IMG/VR virus record: IMGVR_UViG_3300000116_000072
Location: 12,423-36,311 of that record
Length of the DNA stretch: 23,889 nucleotides
Strand: one strand, 5' to 3'
Source of the DNA: a virus
A program made the position numbers and the translations under genes. The notes below the pieces were generated by a model that was given only the letters and a program-made list of their open reading frames with translations, was not told the DNA's origin and did no database searches. Below are positions 1-23,668 of the stretch, one piece after another; within the stretch, counting starts at the first letter, position 1, and every line of letters begins with the position of its first letter.

Positions 1-975
1 GTACCAACCAAGAACCTTGTTCATCAAATGGCTGGTGACTTCAAGGACTACGGATATACTGAGAATGTCCATCTGATCTATGGTGGTAAGGATAAGGATT
101 TCGATGAACAGATTGGTTGTACCACATGGCAGTCAATCTACAAGATGCCGAGGCCTTGGTTCGATCAATTCGATTGTGTGATTGTTGACGAGGTACACGG
201 AGCCAAAGCAAAATCATTGACTGCAATTCTAGAGAAAATGTCCAATGTGGAATATCGGTTCGGTACTACCGGCACGATGGACGGCGTAGACACCAATCGA
301 CTGGTGATTGAGGGATTGTTAGGACCAGTGCACAAAGTCACGACTACAGACAAACTAATCAAAGAGAAAGTATTGGCAGACTTTAATGTGGAATGCATAT
401 TGATGAAGTGGCCAGATTCTGTTTGTAAAACTGTGAGCAAATACACTTATCAGGAAGAAATAGATTTCGTTATATCATCAGAGAAACGCAACAAGATTAT
501 CATGAACCTTGTCCTAAAACAAAAGGGCAACAATCTTGTGCTTGTGAACTTTGTAGAGAAGCATGGTGCAGTATTACATGAGATGTTCAAAGAAGCCACT
601 GATCGACCAGTATATTACATTCATGGTGGTATACCAGCTGAGACTCGAAATGAGTATCGTGCTATGATCGAGAAGGAATCTGATTGCATTGTATTGGCAA
701 CCACTAAAAGTTTCGCCACTGGAACGAATGTGAAGAAATTGAACAACATCTTTTTCTGTCATCCAAGCAAATCACGTATCACCACTCTCCAAGCTATTGG
801 TCGAGTTCTTCGAAGATCAGAGACAAAAACATCGGCAACACTGTACGATATTGTTGATGATTTGTCATATGGGAAAAAACATTGCTTCTCCATGAAGCAT
901 TTCATTGAGCGGATGAAGTTCTATGCCAATGAGCAATTTCCATATGAGATCAAAAAATATGGCTATAAGGATTAG
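1..975 (+). CDS. uvsW: UvsW-like DNA/RNA helicase, 5' end cut by window edge
   Basis: Superfamily 2 helicase that in T4 unwinds branched DNA and R-loops and moves the phage from origin-driven to recombination-driven replication. The frame is open from base 1 (reads V-P-T-K-N-L-V), so the gene starts upstream of the window; the first internal ATG at 28 is not the real start. The DEVH Walker B box is at 187-198. The C-terminal helicase half has the motif V region (LATTKSFATGTNV, about 688-732) and motif VI (QAIGRVLRR, from 790). The protein ends with a short basic tail. Its stop (973-975) overlaps the stop of the convergent endonuclease gene by two bases. Family assignment rests on these motifs plus the T4-like neighbourhood. 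Confidence 0.93.
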   Translation, partial: VPTKNLVHQMAGDFKDYGYTENVHLIYGGKDKDFDEQIGCTTWQSIYKMPRPWFDQFDCVIVDEVHGAKAKSLTAILEKMSNVEYRFGTTGTMDGVDTNRLVIEGLLGPVHKVTTTDKLIKEKVLADFNVECILMKWPDSVCKTVSKYTYQEEIDFVISSEKRNKIIMNLVLKQKGNNLVLVNFVEKHGAVLHEMFKEATDRPVYYIHGGIPAETRNEYRAMIEKESDCIVLATTKSFATGTNVKKLNNIFFCHPSKSRITTLQAIGRVLRRSETKTSATLYDIVDDLSYGKKHCFSMKHFIERMKFYANEQFPYEIKKYGYKD

Positions 976-1469
976 TCGTGGTTTGCGAATTCACCGTGTA
1001 GTTCATTACGCAGCTGTATTGCTTTTGCTATGGCATCTTCTTTATTGACGAAGTAACCACCATGATGAGACTTTTTATTTACCATGATTCGCACATACCA
1101 TTTTCCAGCTGCTTTATGCCAAACGACACCTGTAGTACCAGATGTATTATTCTTCTGCTTACCACTATTGGCTTGATTCTGTGAATTAGTAGCAACACGA
1201 AGATTGTCGATGTTGTTGTTCAACGTATCGTTATCTGCATGATCAACGGAATTATCTTGTGATGTATCAGTGATATCCCATTGCTCATTGAACATCAGGT
1301 AGATCAATCGATGTGCTCTGTACAACTTACCATTGATCCTGATCCGTCGATAACCCGTAGAACTGTCAATACAACCAGCAGGTTTACTCATATCAACAGA
1401 ATGCGGTTGTTCTTTCCAGTACAGATCGTTATCTCTGTACTCAAACAGATCATGTATTGTGTCATACAT
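972..1469 (-). CDS. HNH endonuclease with C-terminal AP2 DNA-binding domain (homing-type), copy 1
   Basis: 165 aa. Free-standing homing-type endonuclease. The central HNH core has the pattern VDHxDND...NNNIDNLR near residues 76-91. The C-terminal AP2-like region (about 108-160) begins NNTSGTTGV and contains GKWYVRI and GGYFVNKEDAIAKA. Start: the ATG at 1469 is preferred over the one at 1526 because the paralogue at 11996 begins at the matching point (M-T-I-Y-D-T-I versus M-Y-D-T-I); no strong ribosome site is visible. It is antisense to the rest of the window and converges on uvsW with overlapping stop codons. It shares long identical DNA stretches with copy 2, so one copy probably came from the other or from a common recent source. 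Confidence 0.9.
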   Translation of the reverse strand: MYDTIHDLFEYRDNDLYWKEQPHSVDMSKPAGCIDSSTGYRRIRINGKLYRAHRLIYLMFNEQWDITDTSQDNSVDHADNDTLNNNIDNLRVATNSQNQANSGKQKNNTSGTTGVVWHKAAGKWYVRIMVNKKSHHGGYFVNKEDAIAKAIQLRNELHGEFANHD

Positions 1470-1673
1470 TGTTACACCACAGCTTCCATAATGATTTTCC
1501 AAATGATGAACGTTATCAATATACACATTATGATACTATTGATTCCCAAAACAACCAATCCCAAACTAACCAACATATCAACACAGTCGTTCATGAAATT
1601 TCTCATTACCATTCCTTATGTTTCATGTTTATATATATACCATGAGACTGTTAGTGTCAATAGGAGAATTTAT
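1470..1673. other. Non-coding gap between divergent genes
   Basis: About 200 bases between the minus-strand HNH gene and the plus-strand gene at 1674. The middle (about 1548-1590) is rich in A and C and looks unstructured. A TATATATA run near 1630-1637 could be a -10-like or late-type promoter element, but no matching -35 hexamer lies upstream. No terminator or credible gene is seen. Confidence 0.4.
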
Positions 1674-10514: not shown

Positions 10515-11053
10515 TAGAAAAAGTTCTACAATATCCAACACAGACAATTCTCAATGAGATAGACAAAAATGTTCTTGAAGCTACATTGGGTGAAGTGTCT
10601 CTATGGGATATCAGTAAACGACACAAGAATATCGAGTATCACAAACACACGCGCAGCATTCCATTGATCACATGGGATAACATAGACGGTGTGGCACAAC
10701 GCGACACAATGACAACTCATGTCGTTAATAAGTATCCTGGTAAATGGCCGGAGATAAATTTGTTTATGCAGACGGTTGAGAAAATGTTCAATTGCTCAGT
10801 CAAGACAATCAGTATCGTTAAACTGGAAGCAAACATGGAAGTCTATCCGCATATTGATGGTGGTGAGTTTTATGCTGCGCATGATCGATATCATTTTGTA
10901 CTGAAAGGTGACTATGAATTTACTGTCGGTGATGATCAAATGGTGTGCTCTAAGGGATGTGTCTATCGATTTGACAACACACTGACACATAGTGTAATAT
11001 GTAAAGATGAAGAACGAATTGCGCTAATATTTGATGCGCTGCCATTAGGATAA
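10511..11053 (+). CDS. Aspartyl/asparaginyl beta-hydroxylase-like 2-oxoglutarate oxygenase
   Basis: 180 aa. The start at 10511 forms an ATGA overlap with the previous stop. The double-stranded beta-helix core carries VYPHIDGG (His 114 as likely iron ligand), RYHFVLKG (Arg 126 and His 128), RFDNTLTHSV (His 160 as likely second iron ligand) and ERIALIFD (Arg 169 for 2-oxoglutarate). This order matches the Asp/Asn beta-hydroxylase family (PF05118 type), which hydroxylates protein side chains or small molecules. The N-terminal 60 residues are not recognised. A phage homologue within a clamp and clamp-loader cluster is uncommon; the substrate is unknown. Confidence 0.72.
   Translation: MIEKVLQYPTQTILNEIDKNVLEATLGEVSLWDISKRHKNIEYHKHTRSIPLITWDNIDGVAQRDTMTTHVVNKYPGKWPEINLFMQTVEKMFNCSVKTISIVKLEANMEVYPHIDGGEFYAAHDRYHFVLKGDYEFTVGDDQMVCSKGCVYRFDNTLTHSVICKDEERIALIFDALPLG
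10971..11000 (+). promoter_or_regulatory. Possible intragenic promoter ahead of gene 44
   Basis: TTGACA (10971-10976), 18-base spacer, TAATAT (10995-11000), within the hydroxylase gene and about 65 bases before gene 44. A start near 11007 would fit, but the hexamers also encode conserved residues, so chance is possible. Confidence 0.35.
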
Positions 11054-11066
11054 TGAGGAACACATG
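11052..11066 (+). promoter_or_regulatory. Possible RegA operator over the gene 44 start
   Basis: AATGAGGAACACATG spans the ribosome site and start codon of gene 44. As recalled, the T4 RegA site on gene 44 mRNA reads AAUGAGGAAAUUAUG, so the first nine bases are the same. RegA is encoded downstream (13892). The AATGAGGA part is also a normal ribosome site, so the match alone is suggestive only. Confidence 0.45.
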
Positions 11067-11996
11067 GAAGAAGCATTGTGGGTAGAAAAATACCGACCAA
11101 AGACAATAGACGCAACCATCCTACCAGTGCGATACAAAGACATGTTTCGTGGAATGGTCAATAGCGGATCAATACCAAACATGATACTGTCTGGTCGTGC
11201 TGGCATTGGTAAAACAACGATCGCAAAAGCAATGTGCGACGAAATTGATTGCGCACACATGGTAATCAACGGATCGCTTGATGGCACAAAAGGTACGCTT
11301 CGAAACGAGATCAAGGACTTTGCGTCTACGATGGCAATGTCCGGTAAAAGAAAGTTCGTCATTCTTGATGAGGCGGACGGACTAACACCGTTGATGCAAC
11401 CTGCTTTGCGTAATTTCATGGAAGAATATTCCAGCAATTGCGGGTTCATTCTCACGTGTAACCGACCACATAAAATCATTCCAGAACTGCATAGTCGATG
11501 CACAAAGATCGATTTCGATATTGCGTCGAATGAGAAGAATGACATCATCAAGCAGTATGCAAAAAGAATCTTCCATATCCTAACAGAAGAGAATGTGAAG
11601 TTCGATAAGAAGACTGTCGTGGCGTTGATCCAGAAACACTTTCCCGACATTCGAAAAGTGATCAATGATCTACAACGCTATTCAGTCAATGGTGAGATCG
11701 ATACCGGTGTTATGGTCAGTTTTGACACTATTAGCTTGAAGCAGTTGTTGGATCACATGAAGAATCGCAACTTTGAGTCAATGCGCGATTGGGTAGCACA
11801 GAATGATATTGACGATCAGGAAATCTACGATAAACTATTTGATGTATGTAGTTCGTTGTTTAAACCTTCATCAGCTGCTCAGTTGGTTGTTCTACTGTCA
11901 AAATATCAGGACATGGGAACACGTGCACCCAATCCAGAGATAACGCTATGTGCTTGCTTATTAGAAATATCTGCCACATTGGAATGGAAAGACTGA
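11064..11996 (+). CDS. 44: gp44-like clamp-loader ATPase subunit
   Basis: 310 aa (T4 gp44 319 aa). AAA+ ATPase that with gp62 opens gp45 and loads it on primer-template DNA. Walker A is GRAGIGKTT (44-52), Walker B is ILDEAD (100-105), sensor 1 is TCN (131-133) and the arginine-finger motif is SRC (144-146). The start at 11064 follows GAGGA. The final codons encode LEISATLEWKD; the same peptide is encoded again at 12535-12567 beyond the inserted HNH gene, with every third position changed in the first seven codons. Gene 62, normally adjacent, is about 1.5 kb away. Confidence 0.95.
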   Translation: MEEALWVEKYRPKTIDATILPVRYKDMFRGMVNSGSIPNMILSGRAGIGKTTIAKAMCDEIDCAHMVINGSLDGTKGTLRNEIKDFASTMAMSGKRKFVILDEADGLTPLMQPALRNFMEEYSSNCGFILTCNRPHKIIPELHSRCTKIDFDIASNEKNDIIKQYAKRIFHILTEENVKFDKKTVVALIQKHFPDIRKVINDLQRYSVNGEIDTGVMVSFDTISLKQLLDHMKNRNFESMRDWVAQNDIDDQEIYDKLFDVCSSLFKPSSAAQLVVLLSKYQDMGTRAPNPEITLCACLLEISATLEWKD

Positions 11997-12499
11997 TGAC
12001 AATATATGACACAATAATCGATCTATTAGAATACAGAGATAATAATCTGTACTGGAAAGAACAGCCGAAGAACCAAGTTGATATGAGTAAACCTGCTGGA
12101 TGTGTCAATGATCGAGGTTATCGACATATCAAGATCAATGGTAATAATTACAGAGCACATCGATTGATATATCTGATGTTCAATCCTGAATGGGATATCA
12201 CTGATACATCACAAGATAATTCCGTTGATCATCGAGATAACGACAAACTGAACAACAACATCGACAATCTGCGTGTTGCTACTCATTCACAAAATAAAGC
12301 CAATAGTGGTAAGTACAAGAATAATACATCTGGTGTTACAGGTGTCTATTGGCATAAACGAGCTGGAAAATGGCAAGTGCTAGTCGCGGTAAATAAAAAG
12401 TCTCATTATGGTGGTTTGTTCGTTAACAAAGAAGATGCCATAGCAAAGGCAACACAGATGCGTGATGAACTACATGGTGAATTTGCACATCACGATTAG
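11996..12499 (+). CDS. HNH endonuclease with C-terminal AP2 domain (homing-type), copy 2
   Basis: 167 aa. The start at 11996 overlaps the gene 44 stop by one base and uses the GGAATGGAAAG at the end of gene 44 as ribosome site. The HNH core VDHRDNDKLNNNIDNLR is near 78-93; the AP2-like region (about 110-162) has NNTSGVTGVYWHK and GGLFVNKEDAIAKA. It is closely related to copy 1, including identical DNA runs of about 40 bases. It is followed by a promoter-like module and a duplicate of the gene 44 tail, the footprint expected of a homing insertion that restored its target gene. Confidence 0.93.
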   Translation: MTIYDTIIDLLEYRDNNLYWKEQPKNQVDMSKPAGCVNDRGYRHIKINGNNYRAHRLIYLMFNPEWDITDTSQDNSVDHRDNDKLNNNIDNLRVATHSQNKANSGKYKNNTSGVTGVYWHKRAGKWQVLVAVNKKSHYGGLFVNKEDAIAKATQMRDELHGEFAHHD

Positions 12500-13168: not shown

Positions 13169-13526
13169 GAACGTTGTAAGACTAAAAAAAGACAATCTGT
13201 ATTCTGCGTATGAAGACAATGCGGTACGATTTATCAATCACTTGAATGGATTGAGCATCATGCTACATGGAATCGAAATGCTATATCCAGATGAACCAGT
13301 ATCAGACAGCACATTAGAATCTCTAGAATTAATGCGAGAAGTGGTTAACGATGCATTACGTGTGGTTATGAGTAATCGCGATATGCTTGGTTTGGCCGAC
13401 AAAAAAGACGATCTCTCAGAAGTCATTGATGAGATCTACGGTGTTGTTATGATTGACGTTGATACTATGCTCATAGAGCGTAAACATAGTGAGGAACTTA
13501 CATGGCCGGACCATTCGACTACGTGA
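13164..13526 (+). CDS. Hypothetical protein with GTG start
   Basis: 120 aa, not recognised. GTG 13164 is preferred because AAAGGA (13152-13157) is well placed for it, while ATG 13149 has no ribosome site. The protein looks all-helical (for example NAVRFINHLNGLSIMLHGIEML and the acidic segment DDLSEVIDEIYGVVMIDVD). Its last 25 bases overlap gene 62, so the two are probably coupled. T4 gp62 is longer at its N-terminus than the gp62 here, so this protein could supply part of that function, but no sequence similarity is visible. Translation may be controlled by the hairpin at its start. Confidence 0.7.
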   Translation: MTNVVRLKKDNLYSAYEDNAVRFINHLNGLSIMLHGIEMLYPDEPVSDSTLESLELMREVVNDALRVVMSNRDMLGLADKKDDLSEVIDEIYGVVMIDVDTMLIERKHSEELTWPDHSTT

Positions 13527-13891: not shown

Positions 13892-14347
13892 ATGATCGAG
13901 ACATTTATCGAGGTTGCTCTAAAAGAAGACGGAGACTTTTTGAAAGTCAAAGAGACGCTAACTCGTATTGGTATTCCGTATTATAAAGAGAAAATATTGC
14001 GACAATCATGTCATATTTTGCATAAGCGGGGAAAATTTTATATCGTGCATTTCAAAGAACTGTACGCACTGGATGAGCTGAATCGCCAAGAACGTGGATT
14101 GTCTAGCGATGGACGTACAACAGATTTCAGTGATGATGATAGAGGACGACGAAATACCATTGCCAATTTGCTTAGTGAATGGTCACTGGTTACAATAGTG
14201 AATCCAGAAGTATGCGAATCACCAAGATGTCCTTTGGTTAGCGATGGCAAAGTATTGATCAAAGTTCTTCCGTTTCGGGAGAAAGCCGATTGGATATTAC
14301 AACCAAAGTACGCCATAGGGAAAAAGAAATATGACAGAACAGACTAA
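13892..14347 (+). CDS. regA: RegA-like translational repressor
   Basis: 151 aa (T4 RegA 122 aa). RNA-binding protein that blocks ribosome access to mRNAs of early and replication genes, including 44 and 45 in T4. DFLKVKETLTRIGI, RQSCHILHKRGKFYIVHFKE and WILQPKYAIG match T4 RegA closely (DFLKVKETLTRMGI, YQSCHILQKKGLYYIVHFKE, WKLVPKYTIG). The start at 13892 uses TGGGGT as ribosome site; upstream in-frame starts (TTG 13862, ATG 13880) lack one. It is longer than T4 RegA in the middle (an acidic stretch, TDFSDDDRGRR) and at the C-terminus (KKKYDRTD). Its end overlaps the amber-interrupted ORF. Confidence 0.95.
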   Translation: MIETFIEVALKEDGDFLKVKETLTRIGIPYYKEKILRQSCHILHKRGKFYIVHFKELYALDELNRQERGLSSDGRTTDFSDDDRGRRNTIANLLSEWSLVTIVNPEVCESPRCPLVSDGKVLIKVLPFREKADWILQPKYAIGKKKYDRTD

Positions 14348-14501
14348 TGAGCCTGTACCATCGACTGATGAAGTACAGAAATAGAAGATCAAACATTTAC
14401 GTAAAATCGCAATTGCTGTATTTTCGGCAATTGCTGTAGGTTTAGGGGTATATCTGGAAGCGATACCAATATCAATCGTCACAGATATGTTCTCTAAATA
14501 G
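14331..14501 (+). pseudogene. Small membrane-peptide gene interrupted by an in-frame amber codon
   Basis: ATG 14331, after AGGG, overlaps the regA 3' end. It encodes 17 residues (ends DEVQK), then TAG at 14382-14384. The same frame stays open to TAG 14499-14501 and encodes KIKHLRK followed by a clear membrane segment (IAIAVFSAIAVGLGVYL). No start codon lies between the amber and the membrane segment, so the second half would need read-through or suppression. Either the gene is broken by one substitution (for example CAG or AAG to TAG), the base call is wrong, or the amber is read through. TAG ends other genes here, so the code is standard. Confidence 0.6.
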
Positions 14502-14544
14502 ATGGCTGATGCAAGGGCATTGGCAAAACCAAGGAGAAACTAAA

Positions 14545-14820
14545 ATGAAGAAATCAATTATTGCAATCGTTGCTGCTATGGGCGTTGCTTTCGCGGCAAC
14601 TTCTGCGGTGGCTGATGATAGTGGTCAAAATGAGCCTGCACCACAGGGTGTAACACAAATTCATCCTTTTAAAAACGCAAACCCATGTGATCGTACGTGG
14701 AAAAAGTGTGCGTTTGCTGTCGAAGAAGGCGGTTTTAATAACCCATCCAAAAAAGCTGGTGTTCCATATGTTGACAAAACACCACAATGGAAAAAAGATG
14801 CGTTTGAGCCAAAAGACTAA
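14545..14820 (+). CDS. Small secreted (periplasmic) protein
   Basis: 91 aa. The start at 14545 follows AAGGAG. The N-terminus MKKSIIAIVAAMGVAFAA is a classic Sec signal peptide, with likely cleavage after AVA at residue 23. The mature part is about 68 residues, hydrophilic, with two Cys (in NPCDRTWKKCAF) that could form a disulfide in the periplasm. No lipobox is seen. Function is not recognised; candidates are superinfection exclusion or alteration of the cell envelope, both inference. It is followed by a strong terminator. Confidence 0.8.
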   Translation: MKKSIIAIVAAMGVAFAATSAVADDSGQNEPAPQGVTQIHPFKNANPCDRTWKKCAFAVEEGGFNNPSKKAGVPYVDKTPQWKKDAFEPKD

Positions 14821-14852
14821 GATGTCGCATCGTAGACTTTAAATTTTGATGG

Positions 14853-14878
14853 AATGGGAAGCTTCGGCTTCCCATTTT
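14853..14878 (+). terminator. Rho-independent terminator with TTCG loop
   Basis: Perfect 10-bp stem AATGGGAAGC (14853-14862) with GCTTCCCATT (14867-14876), closed by a TTCG tetraloop and followed by T residues. It ends the transcript carrying the secreted protein, and probably the 45-44-62-regA transcripts that reach it. Confidence 0.93.
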
Positions 14879-14893
14879 ACATAGGAGAGTCAA

Positions 14894-15181
14894 ATGAGTA
14901 TGGAATATTGCCACAGGCACGATAACACTTATAATACCGACTATGATACCTACTGTCACATGTGCGAGCGTGAAGAAGGCTTTGAGGACACATTGACATT
15001 CATCGAATTATCGACTATTCTTATGAAACGACATCCAACCGAGGACATCATGGATGTTTGGTATGCGTCTGATGATGCAAAGAAGAAACGTATTATCAGC
15101 ATGCTAGAAATAGCTGTTAATGCACCTGATTATGGTAAGTGGCCGGGTGTCTTGTTGGGATGGAAAAATGGAAGCAGTTGA
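14894..15181 (+). CDS. Small protein with putative zinc-binding N-terminus
   Basis: 95 aa. The start at 14894 follows AGGAGAG. The N-terminal CHRH...YCHMCE has Cys/His spacing C-x2-H-x12-C-x2-C, which could bind one zinc. The rest (LSTILMKRHPTEDIMDVWYASDDAKKKRIISMLE) looks helical. No family is recognised. It is the first gene after the terminator at 14853-14878 and opens a run of very small genes. A TTGACA...TATTCT pair inside it (14993-15021) may be chance. Confidence 0.7.
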   Translation: MSMEYCHRHDNTYNTDYDTYCHMCEREEGFEDTLTFIELSTILMKRHPTEDIMDVWYASDDAKKKRIISMLEIAVNAPDYGKWPGVLLGWKNGSS

Positions 15182-15182
15182 T

Positions 15183-15407
15183 ATGAATCCTATGCATAGG
15201 CGGAATGTAATGCATAGTATGATTGAATCGAGAGTGTGGTCGGTGTGTAGAGAACCTGTCAATCTTCTATTATATGATAGAGAATATCCACGCACTACTC
15301 GTGAAGTAGACTTGGCGATTTTTGAAAACGTGTTTACTCAAACGACTGTGATAGACAATGATAGAATTATGTGGTGGTTAGAGGATGAATTTAATTATGA
15401 AAAATAA
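15183..15407 (+). CDS. Small hypothetical protein
   Basis: 74 aa from ATG 15183, eight bases after GGAAG. ATG 15168 (79 aa) is a near-equal alternative and would overlap the previous gene. The protein is rich in Arg and Trp (RRNVMHSMIESRVWSVCREP) and has an acidic end (MWWLEDEFNYEK). No family is recognised. It overlaps the next small membrane-protein gene. Confidence 0.6.
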   Translation: MNPMHRRNVMHSMIESRVWSVCREPVNLLLYDREYPRTTREVDLAIFENVFTQTTVIDNDRIMWWLEDEFNYEK

Positions 15408-15519
15408 GGACAGCGGAATGAGACTTTTGTTCGGGTTCTATCTCGGTTGGTTGGCACTGGTGTTCATGTTCCTGTGTACATTCGCACCTCTCATATATAT
15501 CGCAATCAAAGGAGTCTAG
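15397..15519 (+). CDS. Tiny membrane protein 1
   Basis: 40 aa from ATG 15397, with AGGATG upstream, or 33 aa from ATG 15418, which has AAGGA seven bases upstream. Both give one long hydrophobic segment (LLFGFYLGWLALVFMFLC) ending in a short polar tail. Probably an inner-membrane peptide. The final codons contain AAAGGAGTC, the ribosome site of the next gene. Confidence 0.55.
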   Translation: MKNKDSGMRLLFGFYLGWLALVFMFLCTFAPLIYIAIKGV

Positions 15520-15520
15520 T

Positions 15521-15640
15521 ATGGATTTTAGATCACAAGGCATTGCGGAGCTGGTAGTGCGTGAAATTGCGTTTGCCATTGTTGTCGTGGCAATTGTCGT
15601 AGCAGCGGCTGCGGGCCTGCTGTTTTGGGTAACATATTAA
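15521..15640 (+). CDS. Tiny membrane protein 2
   Basis: 39 aa. The start at 15521 follows a perfect AAGGAG. A short polar N-terminus (DFRSQGIAELVVRE) is followed by a strongly hydrophobic Val/Ala/Ile segment (FAIVVVAIVVAAAAGLLFW). It is a single-pass membrane peptide with no known family and a size compatible with a holin or antiholin fragment, but there is no direct evidence for that. Confidence 0.6.
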   Translation: MDFRSQGIAELVVREIAFAIVVVAIVVAAAAGLLFWVTY

Positions 15641-15651
15641 GGAGTTTGACT

Positions 15652-15744
15652 GTGCAAAACGTTGAAGCAATTCTGATAGCATTCTGTATTGCATTCAGTT
15701 CATTCTTTTGGTATCAAATCCTTTTGCATTTAGGAGTTTGGTGA
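15652..15744 (+). CDS. Tiny membrane protein 3 (GTG start)
   Basis: 30 aa. GTG 15652 follows GGAG (15641-15644). It is hydrophobic throughout (AILIAFCIAFSSFFWYQILL). Its stop overlaps the start of the coiled-coil peptide, and its last codons (TTAGGAGTT) supply that gene's ribosome site. The small size makes the call tentative, but the ribosome site and tight spacing support translation. Confidence 0.5.
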   Translation: MQNVEAILIAFCIAFSSFFWYQILLHLGVW

Positions 15745-15890
15745 TGGTATCAGATTATGATGAGAAGGATGCTATTATAGCTAAACTGACTGCCAAAATC
15801 AAGAGACTGAACACGGCAATCGAGAAATATGAGGAAGCGATATCCTTGTACAAGGCAGTGATAAATAAGTATAACAGAAACACATTATAA
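15744..15890 (+). CDS. Small coiled-coil peptide
   Basis: 48 aa. The start at 15744 overlaps the preceding stop and follows AGGAG. Heptad-like hydrophobics in AIIAKLTAKIKRLNTAIEKY, then EEAISLYKAVI, indicate a coiled coil. It is soluble and sits between membrane peptides, so it may oligomerise or partner one of them. Function unknown. Confidence 0.6.
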   Translation: MVSDYDEKDAIIAKLTAKIKRLNTAIEKYEEAISLYKAVINKYNRNTL

Positions 15891-15901
15891 TGGAGTATAC
15901 A

Positions 15902-15976
15902 ATGATAGCTTTTGGTTTGGGTTCGCTGATGTTCGCATTGGCGATTTTCGTAGCATTGGAGTATTGGTATGATTGA
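15902..15976 (+). CDS. Tiny membrane protein 4
   Basis: 24 aa. ATG 15902 follows TGGAG. It is almost entirely one hydrophobic segment (AFGLGSLMFALAIFVAL) ending EYWYD. Its end overlaps the start of the DUF6356-like gene at 15969, so it may act mainly in coupling. Tentative because of its size. Confidence 0.45.
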   Translation: MIAFGLGSLMFALAIFVALEYWYD

Positions 15977-16334
15977 AGGTTTTAAACTGCTGTTCACCGC
16001 GCATCCTGGTGAGACAGAAAATCCACAAACATATTGGCAACATGGAAAGTTTGCAGCTGGCAACAGCTTCAAGCTCATTTTGGCTGGTATTGCTGGTGTT
16101 ATTCATGCTGTATACCCACCAGCTTTCCCATTCTACACGTCAACACGTGTGATCAAATCATTCAAAAAACTCGTTGAAAGTAAGCGACACATCGATGAAC
16201 TTAAGCGTGAGTTTGGTGAAAACAACGTGCGTATGTTGCGTATCAATGGTGCAAAGGATTTGACTATCACTATCAAGATGTCAGATACCAAAAAAGAATC
16301 TACACGACTGCTGCCGTTTAGTGGTGGAAAATAA
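15969..16334 (+). CDS. DUF6356-like membrane-associated protein
   Basis: 121 aa. The N-terminal half FKLLFTAHPGETENPQTYWQ, then FKLILAGIAGVIHAVYPPAFPF, matches my recollection of DUF6356: short bacterial proteins with LFxxHP, a Gly/Ala-rich hydrophobic stretch and IHAxxPxxF. Their function is not established. The phage version adds a basic C-terminal extension (about residues 62-121). The hydrophobic stretch may be membrane embedded, which would fit the neighbouring membrane peptides. The start at 15969 overlaps the previous tiny gene. Confidence 0.65.
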   Translation: MIEGFKLLFTAHPGETENPQTYWQHGKFAAGNSFKLILAGIAGVIHAVYPPAFPFYTSTRVIKSFKKLVESKRHIDELKREFGENNVRMLRINGAKDLTITIKMSDTKKESTRLLPFSGGK

Positions 16335-16335
16335 T

Positions 16336-16530
16336 ATGTCTGTCTATAATTTTGCCTCTAGAGTGCATGACATAATGGAAGCACACCCGCACATGACCAT
16401 GCACGAGGCGATCGATCGGTTAATCAATTGGCCGAATATCAAAGACAAGACATACTACACTGACGATGAGCTGGTAGCGCGGGTTCATATATACAGAGAA
16501 TTTCATGAAGACAGCACACCAAAAGGATAA
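16336..16530 (+). CDS. Small hypothetical protein
   Basis: 64 aa. ATG 16336 is chosen with GGTGGA upstream; the GTG at 16321 lies inside the preceding gene. It is helical and acidic, with DIMEAHPHMTMHEAIDRLINW and a polar end. No family is recognised. Its stop touches the next gene. Confidence 0.6.
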   Translation: MSVYNFASRVHDIMEAHPHMTMHEAIDRLINWPNIKDKTYYTDDELVARVHIYREFHEDSTPKG

Positions 16531-16535
16531 TGAAT

Positions 16536-16838
16536 ATGGATGTAACAGTAACACAGAATGTCATCTTTGTTGATGGTAAGCCAAACCTACACATGACGGA
16601 TCAATCCCCACCATGGGTACAGGATGCATTCAAGATTGGTTATCTTGGTGTTGTGCGTTTGAATAACAATCAAGCAGTTCTAGCAGTCAAAACCAAGAAG
16701 GGCATTGAAGTAGCAGAAGGCGGTGATCGCATTGCCAATGATCTGATGTCTGGTCTTGTGGTCACAAAGAAGCCAACCAATACTCTTACGTGGGATGCTG
16801 TTGAGGAAATGATGAAAGCTCGTGAAAATGGATCTTGA
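16536..16838 (+). CDS. Small hypothetical protein
   Basis: 100 aa. ATG 16536 is eight bases after AAGGA; ATG 16530 is too close to it. The predicted content is beta-rich (NVIFVDGKPNLHMTDQSPPWV, then GVVRLNNNQAVLAVKTKKGI), followed by a helix (WDAVEEMMKAREN). No family is recognised. Its end overlaps the GNAT gene by 11 bases. Confidence 0.65.
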   Translation: MDVTVTQNVIFVDGKPNLHMTDQSPPWVQDAFKIGYLGVVRLNNNQAVLAVKTKKGIEVAEGGDRIANDLMSGLVVTKKPTNTLTWDAVEEMMKARENGS

Positions 16839-17244
16839 GTATCATTCGGAAGATCAGATAGACGGAGCTGGACCAATCGTGTTTGTTGCTACTGAGGGTT
16901 GGGTTGATCTTGTAGCAAAGGGACACGCATGGGCAGACTATGTTCCGTTTCGTCATACTGACTCTGTTGTGTATGTGACTGACTACGAGTACGGTGACAT
17001 CGTAGCATTCATTGTATACCGCATAGAAAGCCCACACAAGGCGTCCATTCAGGTTGGGTACACACAGCCACATGCTCGTAGAAAGGGCATGTATGGCCGT
17101 CTCCTGGTCTATTTCGAAGAGGTTTTACGCGACAAGGGCATTCGCGTATACGAAACCATTGTATCAGACACGAACAAGGCCATGCGATCGATCAATGATA
17201 CAAGGGAACCAGTTGGTGTGTTGAGTAGAAAGGTTATAGGATGA
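16828..17244 (+). CDS. GNAT-family N-acetyltransferase-like protein
   Basis: 138 aa. The GNAT core is VGYTQPHARRKGMYGRLLVYF (76-96, described in parts): a beta strand followed by R-R-K-G-x-x-G (84-90), the acetyl-CoA pyrophosphate loop, then a helix. The strand before it (VVYVTDYEYGDIVAFIVYRI) also fits. The substrate could be a protein, a nucleotide or an antibiotic and cannot be told. It starts at ATG 16828 within the previous gene's end; GTG 16822 is an alternative. The stop overlaps the next membrane-peptide gene. Confidence 0.7.
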   Translation: MDLEYHSEDQIDGAGPIVFVATEGWVDLVAKGHAWADYVPFRHTDSVVYVTDYEYGDIVAFIVYRIESPHKASIQVGYTQPHARRKGMYGRLLVYFEEVLRDKGIRVYETIVSDTNKAMRSINDTREPVGVLSRKVIG

Positions 17245-17363
17245 ATGATTTTACAGACGTGATTATGGGTTCGGTTCTCTATTTGGCGACAGCAATGTTC
17301 GTAGGTAGCATCGTGGTTCGGATGGTGCATTATGTTTTCACAACGAATGCTCCATTGGTGTGA
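17241..17363 (+). CDS. Tiny membrane protein 5
   Basis: 40 aa. ATG 17241 overlaps the GNAT stop; AGG lies just upstream. It has one hydrophobic segment (IMGSVLYLATAMFVGSIVV) and a short polar end. It is the last gene before the polymerase promoter, and its stop abuts the -35 box. Confidence 0.55.
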   Translation: MNDFTDVIMGSVLYLATAMFVGSIVVRMVHYVFTTNAPLV

Positions 17364-17392
17364 TTGACACAATCGAATCTGTGTGATATAGT
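17364..17392 (+). promoter_or_regulatory. Strong predicted sigma70-type promoter for gene 43
   Basis: TTGACA (17364-17369), 17-base spacer ending in TGA, then TATAGT (17387-17392). Perfect -35 and extended -10. Transcription would begin near 17399, about 18 bases before the polymerase start, so the leader is very short. Confidence 0.88.
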
Positions 17393-17416
17393 GGATCGTT
17401 GTTCATTGGAGAAGCT

Positions 17417-19903
17417 ATGTCACACTTTTATACGAACGTCGTTAAACGCAACAACAAGATCCTAGTTCGTGGGTATAAGAATGGCAAGCGATATTCAGGT
17501 AGATATCCGTTTTCGCCATCGCTGTTTATGCCCACGAACGAAGAAAGCAAATGGCGTACCATACATGGTACAGCACTAAAAGAAAAGAAGTTCGAGTCGC
17601 CAAACCATATGCGTGACTTCGTAAAGACGTACGGTGATGTTGATAACTTCGAATACTTCGGTATGGAAGATGCAGCATACCAATACATCTACCAAAATTT
17701 CCACAAAGCAAAATACGAATCCAAGTACATTCGCGTGTGTTATCTCGACATTGAGGTAGACACGGAAGGTGGTTATCCAGACATGGCTACAGCAGATAAG
17801 AAGATCACTGCTATCACCATGCTCTATGACGACATCACAATTGCATTCGGTTATGGCGAATATGAAACTGATGATCCGACCATCAAATACATTCGCTGTA
17901 AGAACGAACACGAACTGATACGCAAATTTATTAAGGTGTGGTCGTCAGCGCGATATGGTCCTGATGTTGTGTCTGGTTGGAATATTGAGTTCTTCGATAT
18001 CCCATATCTCTACACACGAATTACACGCATGTTCGACGAAGACATGGCACGTGAGCTATCACCATGGCGCATGTTCGACAAGCGTACAGTCACTATGTTT
18101 GGTAGGGAACAGACAGCATACTATCCGATTGGTATTGCTGTGCTCGATTATATCAGCATGTACAAGAAATTCGTTGCAGTCACCAAACCACAAGAGACTT
18201 ATAAGCTAGATCATATTGCATGGGTTGAGTTGGGTGAAAACAAACTCGACTACTCAGAATATGGTTCACTGCATAAACTGGCAGCAGAAAATCACCAACT
18301 GTTCATGGAATATAATATTCGTGACTGCCGACTGGTGAAACGCATAGACGACAAGCAGAAATTGATGGAGGTGATTTACGCAATCTCATTCTCATCGAAT
18401 ATTAATTTTGGTTCTGCTATGGGTACAGTTGCGGCATGGGACGTGGCCATCTACAGCTACTTGATGGATCGATGTGTGATCATACCAAAGAAAGTCAAAA
18501 ACGATCCTGGTAGGCAATTGGTGGGCGGTTATGTTAAGCCACCGATACCGGGTAAGTATGGGTGGTTGGCGTCGTTCGATTTGACCAGTCTGTATCCACA
18601 TATCATCATGCAATATAACGTTGGACCAGACACGTTCATCAAGCAATGTCCTAATGACTATACGACACAAGAGTTAATAGCTGGTGAACACAGGAAGGAT
18701 ATGGATGGTAATATCTTTGCTGCTAATTCATGCATGTACTCACGCGACAAGACATCATTCCTCAGTCAGTTAATGAAGGATCTATTCAATGAACGCAAAG
18801 AAGTCAAAAAGGAAATGCTGGCGCTCGAACAGAAACGTGCGAACGGTGAAGAGAATTTGTCATCTGAAATCGAGAAGTTGGATACACTCCAATATGCAAT
18901 CAAAGTCAGATTGAACGCAGCCTATGGTGCATTAGGTAACAAGCATTTCCGTTGGTTCGATATTCGTTACGCTGAGAGCATCACACGTGGTGGTCAGTTG
19001 GCTGTTCAATGGGCTGCGCACTATGTCAATGGTTTCATGAACAAATGGCTTAAGACAGAAGAGATCGACTACATCATCTACATCGACACAGATTCGATTT
19101 ATGTTGATATGGAAGAAGTTGTGAAGCGAATTGGTAAAGAATGCACCAGAGAAGAGAAGACGGAAGCATTGGATGCGTTCTGTGAAACGAAGATACAACC
19201 ACTTCTAGAAGCTGTGTATCAAAAACTGGCTGGTTGGATGGCAGCAAAAGAGCAGGCTATGTTCATGAAACGTGAAGCTCTTGCTGATCGTGCTGTGTTC
19301 GTTGCCAAGAAACGTTACATGATCAACGTGCTGAATAACGAAGGAGTACAGTACAAAGAACCAAAGATCAAAATTCTTGGTATTGAATGTGTAAGATCTA
19401 GTACACCAAGTTCGTGTCGCCAAGCTATTCGTGATGCCATCAAGATCATTCTACAAGGCGAAGAGAGTGAACTACATAGTTATGTTAAGACTTTCCGTGA
19501 CCAGTACATGACACTACCGTTAGAAGAGATTGCGCGTAACAGTGGTTGTAATGGCATGGACAAATATGGCGATCCGCAAACGATCTATGCACCGAAAACA
19601 CCGATGCAAGTTCGTGGCGCATTGCTATACAATCATTGGCTCAAGAAAAACAAACTGACTGACAAGTACGAAACCATATTCGAGAGTGATAAGGTTCGAT
19701 ATCTGATGTTGCGTGTTCCAAATCCAATACAGGAAAACGTCATATCATGGACTGGAAAACTACCGGATGAGTTTGACATACACGCTTATATAGACTATGA
19801 TACTCAGTTCGTAAAAACTTTCTTTGATCCAATTGAAAACATATTGACGTTGGTTGATTGGTCAAGTGAGCCGCGTTTTAAGATAGGAGATTTCTGGGGA
19901 TGA
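17417..19903 (+). CDS. 43: gp43-like family B DNA polymerase
   Basis: 828 aa (T4 gp43 898 aa). Replicative polymerase with 3'-5' exonuclease. Exonuclease motifs: DIE (111-113), NIEFFD (189-194) and the YNIRDCRLV region. Polymerase motif A is DLTSLYP starting at Asp 388. Motif B is K496-xxx-N500-xx-Y503-G. Motif C is YIDTDSIY with Asp 557 and Asp 559. KKRY is also present. The gene is uninterrupted, with no intein or intron as found in some relatives. The start at 17417 follows GGAG. The stop overlaps the next small gene. Confidence 0.97.
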   Translation: MSHFYTNVVKRNNKILVRGYKNGKRYSGRYPFSPSLFMPTNEESKWRTIHGTALKEKKFESPNHMRDFVKTYGDVDNFEYFGMEDAAYQYIYQNFHKAKYESKYIRVCYLDIEVDTEGGYPDMATADKKITAITMLYDDITIAFGYGEYETDDPTIKYIRCKNEHELIRKFIKVWSSARYGPDVVSGWNIEFFDIPYLYTRITRMFDEDMARELSPWRMFDKRTVTMFGREQTAYYPIGIAVLDYISMYKKFVAVTKPQETYKLDHIAWVELGENKLDYSEYGSLHKLAAENHQLFMEYNIRDCRLVKRIDDKQKLMEVIYAISFSSNINFGSAMGTVAAWDVAIYSYLMDRCVIIPKKVKNDPGRQLVGGYVKPPIPGKYGWLASFDLTSLYPHIIMQYNVGPDTFIKQCPNDYTTQELIAGEHRKDMDGNIFAANSCMYSRDKTSFLSQLMKDLFNERKEVKKEMLALEQKRANGEENLSSEIEKLDTLQYAIKVRLNAAYGALGNKHFRWFDIRYAESITRGGQLAVQWAAHYVNGFMNKWLKTEEIDYIIYIDTDSIYVDMEEVVKRIGKECTREEKTEALDAFCETKIQPLLEAVYQKLAGWMAAKEQAMFMKREALADRAVFVAKKRYMINVLNNEGVQYKEPKIKILGIECVRSSTPSSCRQAIRDAIKIILQGEESELHSYVKTFRDQYMTLPLEEIARNSGCNGMDKYGDPQTIYAPKTPMQVRGALLYNHWLKKNKLTDKYETIFESDKVRYLMLRVPNPIQENVISWTGKLPDEFDIHAYIDYDTQFVKTFFDPIENILTLVDWSSEPRFKIGDFWG
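19773..19801 (+). promoter_or_regulatory. Possible intragenic promoter near the end of gene 43
   Basis: TTGACA (19773-19778), 17-base spacer, TATGAT (19796-19801). Good hexamers and spacing but no TGN before the -10, unlike the intergenic promoters. It could drive the small genes and uvsX. Confidence 0.4.
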
Positions 19904-22310: not shown

Positions 22311-23668
22311 TGGAAGAAATTATCTTATCGAACCTAGCTTATAATGAGAAGTATGCTCGTAAGATTGTGCCTTATTTGAGTGACGAATTGTTCTCATATG
22401 ATGCACAGAAGAAAACTTATCAAATGATACGTGAATATCTTGAACGATACAATGCTCTACCGACTAAGGAAGTTCTGTATATCAATCTCGAAAACACGAA
22501 TGATATTTCAGAGCAAATGTTCAATGACACCAAAGAAATAATCGGCAATCTGAAAGTGGATGAAGACACCAAATTCGATTGGTTGATTGATGAGACTGAA
22601 AAATTTGTACAAGACAGGACAATAACAAATGCGATACGCCGATCTATCAGAATACTCGATGCCGACACAGATCTTACGAAATCAGCAATTCCTGGCCTAT
22701 TACAAGAAGCCTTGTCGGTTTCCTTCAATACGGAAATTGGTCACGATTTTGTTGCCGACGCGGAAACCCGCTATGAAATATACCATCAGAAGGACAAAAA
22801 ACTTAGGTTTAACTTGGACTATTTCAATCGAATCACTGGAGGTGGTTTGCCCACCAAAACTCTAAGCTGCATAATGGCGAGCACTGGTGTTGGGAAAAGT
22901 CTTGCTATGTGTTCGATGGCAGCAGCCAATCTCATGGACCAACAGAATGTGCTCTATATAACGCTAGAGATGGCCGAAGAGCGGATTGCAGAAAGAATCG
23001 ATGCTAACCTAATGGATACGCCGGTAGATGGTTTGATTGATCTTACAAAGACTGAATACGTTAAGAAAATGGCGGCTGTATCAGAATCTACTAAAGGAAG
23101 ATTTATCATCAAAGAGTATCCTACTGCAAGTGCATCAGCAGAGCATTTCCGCAATCTACTTGATGAGTTGAAGATCAAGAAAAACTTTGTGCCTGATGTT
23201 GTGTATGTTGACTACATCAATCTGTGTATGTCGTCTCGCATTAAGATTGGTGCAGGGGCAAATTCGTACGCATATATAAAGGCAATCGCAGAAGAACTAC
23301 GTGGACTGGCAGTCGAATATGAAATCCCGATCATCACAGCCACACAGGCTAATCGTGATGCGATTGGCAGTTCTGACGTCTCGCTCACAAACACATCTGA
23401 CTCGATTGGTCTACCGATGACAGTAGATTTCATGGTGGCAATAATAGCTACTGAGGAATTGGATGAAGAAAATAAGTTCATGGTCAAACAATTGAAAAAT
23501 AGATTCGGTGATCCAGGGAAGTATCGTCGGTTCTTCGTTGGTGTGGATAAGGCAAAAATGCGTTTGTACGACTGTGCAAACGAAATACAAGAAGAACCTC
23601 CGGTAATGGATAATGGTGATTTCAATACCAAAAATTATGAACCGACAAAATTCGGTGGGTTCGTATAA
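22310..23668 (+). CDS. 41: gp41-like replicative helicase (DnaB family)
   Basis: 452 aa (T4 gp41 475 aa). Hexameric 5'-3' helicase that moves with the primase on the lagging strand. The N-terminal domain (1-140) is helical. Walker A is ASTGVGKS (190-197), followed by LYITLEMAEERIAER, the DnaB H1a-like segment. Walker B is VVYVDYIN with Asp 301. The sensor region is ATQANRD. The C-terminus (KNRFGDPGKYRRFFVGVD) carries the basic DNA-loop and arginine-finger area. The start at 22310 overlaps the previous stop and follows AAGGA. Confidence 0.96.
   Translation: MEEIILSNLAYNEKYARKIVPYLSDELFSYDAQKKTYQMIREYLERYNALPTKEVLYINLENTNDISEQMFNDTKEIIGNLKVDEDTKFDWLIDETEKFVQDRTITNAIRRSIRILDADTDLTKSAIPGLLQEALSVSFNTEIGHDFVADAETRYEIYHQKDKKLRFNLDYFNRITGGGLPTKTLSCIMASTGVGKSLAMCSMAAANLMDQQNVLYITLEMAEERIAERIDANLMDTPVDGLIDLTKTEYVKKMAAVSESTKGRFIIKEYPTASASAEHFRNLLDELKIKKNFVPDVVYVDYINLCMSSRIKIGAGANSYAYIKAIAEELRGLAVEYEIPIITATQANRDAIGSSDVSLTNTSDSIGLPMTVDFMVAIIATEELDEENKFMVKQLKNRFGDPGKYRRFFVGVDKAKMRLYDCANEIQEEPPVMDNGDFNTKNYEPTKFGGFV

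Follow-up and report, generated by a model that had tools for sequence, protein, structure and literature searches.

In the interval between regA and gene 43 of a T4-like phage genome, the small open reading frame (ORF) starting at position 15397 encodes a 40-residue member of a previously unnamed family of membrane peptides, which is conserved at the protein level in eight relatives. The stretch analysed, referred to here as the window, comprises 23,889 bases, corresponding to positions 12,423 to 36,311 of the 36,311-base viral record IMGVR_UViG_3300000116_000072 from IMG/VR, and the interval occupies 3.07 kb of it (14348-17413). As noted in the first-pass annotation of the bare sequence, the two genes are adjacent in T4, where 78 nucleotides (nt) separate them. 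Among 38 relatives possessing both genes, however, the gap ranges from 277 to 5753 bases; hence, its size in the window is ordinary and the site is variable. Our best reading, held tentatively and at somewhat less than an even chance, is that this gap is a cassette site filled with short, translationally coupled early host-takeover genes, and that the 15397 microprotein would act by docking on a specific host membrane protein.

The 15397 peptide is a real protein under purifying selection. Plain tblastn detected it in contig L020 with 72% identity over 39 residues, and scanning 2.9 million viral contigs with patterns and profiles extended the family to nine contigs, that is, L001, which represents the same phage, and eight others forming two groups (L020/L082/L083 and L085-L089). 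The alignment yields the consensus FxxGWxALVFMFLCTFxPLxYIA. Between the window and the relatives, 22-28 of the 90 core bases differ, with only 6-9 residues being changed, and the corresponding estimated rates are about 1 or saturated at silent sites and 0.16-0.22 for coding changes. In the 30-codon core compared with L020, the 27 base differences result in six residue changes, against a neutral mean of 16.2 and with none of 20,000 simulations reaching a value as low. In general, random substitution would alter about 14-16 core residues, and the observed lows appeared in 0 to 0.135% of 20,000 simulations (three window comparisons). In the same window/L020 pair, the identity amounts to 71% for UvsX and to about 45% for gp43. 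That a membrane helix is conserved to the same degree as the recombinase UvsX although its silent sites are saturated hints strongly at a fixed target in the host. Regarding the start, the site at 15397 is preceded by AGGA only, 11 nt away, whereas an inner ATG at 15418 in the same frame has a better ribosome site (TAAGGA, 7 nt); the start at 15397 is favoured because homologs also begin with MKxKD or MKND.

The AlphaFold model of the peptide is a single helix extending from residue 3 to 38 (mean predicted local distance difference test score, pLDDT, of 84), and with one predicted membrane helix and fewer than 60 amino acids (aa) it belongs to the small single-span membrane proteins. In the seven distinct sequences, 19 of the 30 core positions are invariant, and these are spread over all helix angles. 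Since all faces are kept while silent sites saturate, a generic anchor does not account for the pattern, as lipid-facing residues would be expected to drift; a helix nearly frozen on every face is most simply read as being tightly packed against a specific protein of the membrane. The product would probably insert into the inner membrane soon after infection, with its N terminus probably cytoplasmic according to the positive-inside rule, and its helix would pack on all sides against a particular multi-span protein or complex of the host membrane. Once docked, it might shift the activity of this complex in favour of the phage, closing the membrane to other phages being one conceivable form. The analysis established the frame, its relatives, purifying selection, a predicted helix and the promoter-like sites of the relatives described below; early timing, topology and a specific partner are what we infer. 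It is also conceivable, albeit unlikely, that the family represents a viral 'extra subunit', that is, a helix of 35-40 residues occupying a cavity of a conserved host membrane complex and retuning it, with every face constrained, as in a true subunit, and exchanged between T4-like phages as an independent cassette that carries an early promoter of its own.

In L085-L089, the relative of the peptide is likewise encoded between regA and gene 43 (the L086 contig starts later, with the peptide just 5' of 43). In L020 and L082, it is found outside this interval, following a secreted lytic-transglycosylase-like protein (PF03330 with an E value of 4e-20, tested in L082) and preceding a P-loop protein, and in L083, where the frame can start at least 20 codons earlier, it also lies outside. 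The position in the interval is thus shared by five relatives and differs in three. The first-pass annotation had proposed that the small ORFs form one envelope module, which did not hold up; a single co-evolving module is unsupported because the sole member that can be traced moves without the remaining small ORFs. The suggested membrane anchoring of the replication machinery of the phage would agree with the location in the regA-43 interval of the window and of five relatives, but it is very improbable, as the peptide sits away from the replication genes in L020, L082 and L083, the gap varies as widely as given above, and the peptide profile matched only one of 30 viral records (L020, already known as a carrier) though gp43 and uvsX are general.

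A sigma-70-like promoter scoring 10 to 12 of 12 is present within about 115 bases upstream of the peptide in all eight relatives, a score reached in about 6.5% of random 130-base stretches. The eight are not independent of each other, but at least three different promoter sequences and differing gene settings are represented. In the region as a whole, 53 promoter-like sites were counted versus 56.8 expected from shuffles. An early host-directed role, in line with the initially suggested host takeover, fits these upstream promoters, and early-type promoters in relatives, patchy occurrence and changed genome positions together fit an early gene that is dispensable and directed at the host. Tiny proteins without annotation abound among the early genes of phages.

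The promoters and the patchy distribution fit exclusion genes as well, and T4 carries near gene 43 the small imm, annotated as conferring immunity to superinfection. Nevertheless, we consider it unlikely that the 15397 peptide excludes superinfecting related phages at the membrane by an Imm-like block of DNA entry, since T4 imm comes after gene 43 and thus on its other side, the three window peptides compared with Imm show no similarity to it, and the 15397 helix is nearly frozen, whereas exclusion genes often diversify. Still less probable is a self-assembling pore or lysis-accessory (holin-like) peptide depolarising the membrane: small size, the single helix and one weak holin profile match among seven members (E 0.11) would be compatible with it, but the window and five relatives place the peptide among replication genes and not in a lysis cassette, the promoters of the relatives are of early type, and the window copy has no Pfam, NCBIfam or PHROG match. 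Members of the family match PHROG only weakly (best E 0.019), a PDB sequence search with the family gave no convincing match, and the PADLOC anti-phage defence models returned no family for the six proteins given.

Several points weigh against the proposed docking on a host protein. Conservation of a membrane peptide could serve self-assembly rather than a host partner. The peptide is rare, as none of 50,697 phage records contained a convincing match. Directly upstream of 15397, the window has no promoter-like site (best score 8 of 12), so that an own promoter was rejected and this copy is probably read from a promoter further upstream. Finally, most relatives were retrieved with patterns fixing part of the core, and the invariance is in part due to this selection; for L020, plain tblastn was sufficient. 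As core positions 17-27 were partly fixed, a second pattern leaving positions 19-27 free was run, which returned the nine known contigs plus one chance match and added no diverged relative, with members breaking all patterns used escaping such scans. Among the candidates dismissed, L187 has a frame unlike the family outside the search pattern, the matches in the genomes of Bosea (L096) and Adlercreutzia (L097) sit within much larger proteins and do not represent cellular relatives, and a match in Mycobacterium phage Phlei (E 2, 40% over 25 residues) was taken as chance.

The five small ORFs originally listed, each of 24-40 codons with one hydrophobic helix, are all present in the interval, and their starts are tightly coupled, in agreement with the overlapping starts noted initially: a TAG-T-ATG arrangement links 15397 and 15521 (15517-15523), the ribosome site of the 15652 ORF overlaps the TAA stop at 15638, TGA and ATG overlap at 15744, and the start at 15969 overlaps the 3' end of the 15902 ORF. 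A filter for ORFs of 22-60 aa with a ribosome site of at least 4 bases and a 19-residue Kyte-Doolittle (KD) mean of at least 1.8, chosen after the ORFs were known, passes five in the interval, none on its minus strand, and on average 0.044 (maximum 2) in 500 dinucleotide shuffles. The intervals of the 38 relatives (86.9 kb) hold 17 on the coding versus 6 on the other strand. Twelve of the 17 belong to four contigs of one clade, and four of these 12 are probably alternative frames, as the three small ORFs counted in each of L085, L087, L088 and L092 include an alternative frame, probably not real, within the homolog of the 16536 protein. Only the window has four passing ORFs within 1 kb among 169 roughly non-redundant loci, some overlap possibly remaining after duplicate loci of the same contigs had been dropped; stretches with three were seen in seven other loci, five of them being contigs of the clade carrying the 15397 relative. 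Altogether, the data support that the small membrane ORFs of the interval are not due to chance.

Preservation of the frame in relatives was demonstrated for 15397 only. The ORFs 15521, 15652, 15902 and 17241 belong to no family and have no credible relative in the fetched loci, and selection on them is not measurable because L001 is identical to the window throughout the interval. For these two reasons, it is possible, although we regard it as rather unlikely, that they are frames of recent origin, specific to this lineage or even without function, in a gap that is variable, a view at odds with the presence of five such ORFs, equipped with ribosome sites and with ends that overlap, where 0.04 would be expected. 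Elsewhere, a tiny hydrophobic ORF, MIGMLIGLVN[VI][IL]VVLVILKYGE, follows regA in L085 (11553-11621), L086, L087, L088 and L092, hence in the clade of the 15397 relative, and, apart from length, varies only among I, L and V. In L002 (9888-10031), a hydrophobic 47-aa frame without evident ribosome site overlaps the start of gene 43, being placed like the 17241 ORF of the window.

Table 1. Coordinates and supporting evidence for regA, gene 43 and the features between them in the window.
Feature	Position	Strand	Evidence
regA, translational repressor, left border of interval	13892..14347	+	Pfam PF01818, E 2e-36
Small predicted secreted protein, 91 aa	14545..14820	+	Sequence; Sec-type signal peptide read by eye
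Single-span membrane microprotein, conserved family, 40 aa	15397..15519	+	8 relatives in other contigs; silent change dominant; one helix
Hydrophobic ORF, 39 aa, relatives not found	15521..15640	+	AAGGAG ribosome site, KD 3.0
Hydrophobic ORF, 30 aa, GTG start, relatives not found	15652..15744	+	TAAGGAG ribosome site, KD 2.1
Charged helical peptide, probably coiled-coil, 48 aa	15744..15890	+	AGGAG ribosome site; weak coil-family matches
Hydrophobic ORF, 24 aa, relatives not found	15902..15976	+	GGAG ribosome site, KD 2.4
DUF6356 protein, hydrophobic stretch, 121 aa	15969..16334	+	PF19883, E 5e-12, 46.1 bits vs cut-off of 24.4 bits
ORF without family, 64 aa	16336..16530	+	
Beta-rich protein, 100 aa, relatives often accompany 15397 peptide	16536..16838	+	Relatives; model
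GNAT-like acetyltransferase	16831..17244	+	PF00583, E 9e-6, over cut-off
Hydrophobic ORF just 5' of gene 43, 40 aa, relatives not found	17241..17363	+	AAGG ribosome site, KD 2.1
Sigma-70-like promoter before gene 43, TTGACA-17-TATAGT	17364..17392	+	11 of 12
Gene 43, DNA polymerase, T4-like family, right border	17414..19903	+	tblastn

The remaining content of the interval largely corresponds to the initial description (Table 1). A signal peptide can be read in the sequence of the secreted protein, which stays below the cut-off of PF20130 (DUF6520) with 21 versus 25.4 bits. The reported amber-split membrane peptide exists as a hydrophobic frame interrupted by an amber codon (14331-14500): the ORF from 14331 runs for 17 codons to the amber codon and is followed by the open hydrophobic stretch KIKHLRKIAIAVFSAIAVGLGVYLEAIPISIVTDMFSK lacking a start codon (ATG, GTG or TTG). 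An intact ORF of 48 aa in L004 (3475-3621) is similar to it (42% identity in 31 residues; E 1e-4, no composition correction applied), a likeness not confirmed by a profile scan; the interrupted frame may reflect decay or a non-standard start. Read-through by a suppressor tRNA was rejected, as no tRNA was found on the contig and TAG commonly serves as stop codon in this phage. For the 15744 peptide the ORF is present, while its coil nature, assumed in the first-pass annotation, is suggested only by weak matches to several coil families; it shows no similarity to the coil-like protein beside the peptide in L082 and was not considered related to it.

The assignment of the 15969 product to DUF6356 proved correct, with a score over the curated cut-off. 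Among 14 control genomes, PF19883 matched in Caulobacter alone, and it matched in two of 16 phage records, one being the window's own; given this Caulobacter-only match, an alphaproteobacterial host of the phage is plausible. The DUF6356-bearing record G021 has no comparable block and was rejected as syntenic relative. Seven contigs were found to encode the 16536 protein, six of them together with the 15397 peptide (besides the window's phage, six contigs, five with the peptide and L002 without), and a homolog of this protein adjoins the peptide in all five of L085-L089, the order being reversed in the window. The model of the 16536 protein is beta-rich and compact (pLDDT 85), and a fold search with it gave no PDB match with E ≤ 0.001. 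A promoter scoring 10 to 12 of 12, like that preceding gene 43 in the window, lies upstream of this gene in six of the eight relatives examined (L085, L092, L004, L005, L007 and L006, not L002 and L003), which suggests that gene 43 might possess its own early-type promoter in this group.

The window shows a T4-like gene order (gp46/47, gp45, gp44, gp62, regA, gp43, uvsX, gp41), the names except those of regA and gp43 being partly what we take these genes to be. While gp43 matches 2578 phage records (tblastn, best identity about 41%), the annotated phage collection holds no close relative of the window, with four records matching over 56 bases each, and Rfam gave no match in the window. L001, a contig of 13,903 bases, is 99.92% identical to the window; none of the 11 differences is in the regA-43 interval, and all are clustered at 13358-13424 and 22921-23140. 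Two related HNH endonuclease genes (PF13392), about 85% identical over some 500 bases, are encoded on opposite strands at 972-1526 (-) and 11993-12499 (+). In other loci, gene 43 is interrupted by extra sequence in L088 (4501-5245) and L092 (9847-10985), and uvsX in L005 (5072-5478), possibly introns or inteins in each case. L178 carries, further upstream on the contig, a collagen-like GXY-repeat protein and a PIDLP-type repeat run (1332-2114, 11021-11871).

Apart from identifying a variable cassette site of environmental T4-like phages in the gap between regA and gene 43, the analysis points to a peptide short enough for direct synthesis and testing; if it indeed modulates a host membrane complex, it would be a natural peptide probe of that complex. 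Its family appears to be new, while the kind, small early phage membrane proteins, is known. Small novel phage gene families have reportedly been predicted at scale by Fremin et al. in 2022, and the 15397 family resembles the genes described in surveys of this type. In the portion of the literature on small phage membrane proteins and DUF6356 that was covered, which did not extend to the tables of that survey, nothing on this family was found. The DUF6356 protein of the window differs from PF19883 in being a phage protein with about 50 extra C-terminal residues. T4 Imm is comparable as a small gene product encoded near gene 43 and annotated to act at the membrane, but it has 83 aa and differs in side and sequence as outlined above. 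According to PMC6071114, many small immediate-early genes of T4 are host-directed 'monkey wrenches', and several T4 proteins of a region described there are membrane-located. With these, the small ORFs of the window share gene size, variable sites and, if our reading is correct, early host modification, yet the peptides of the window are particularly short, with just 24-40 aa.

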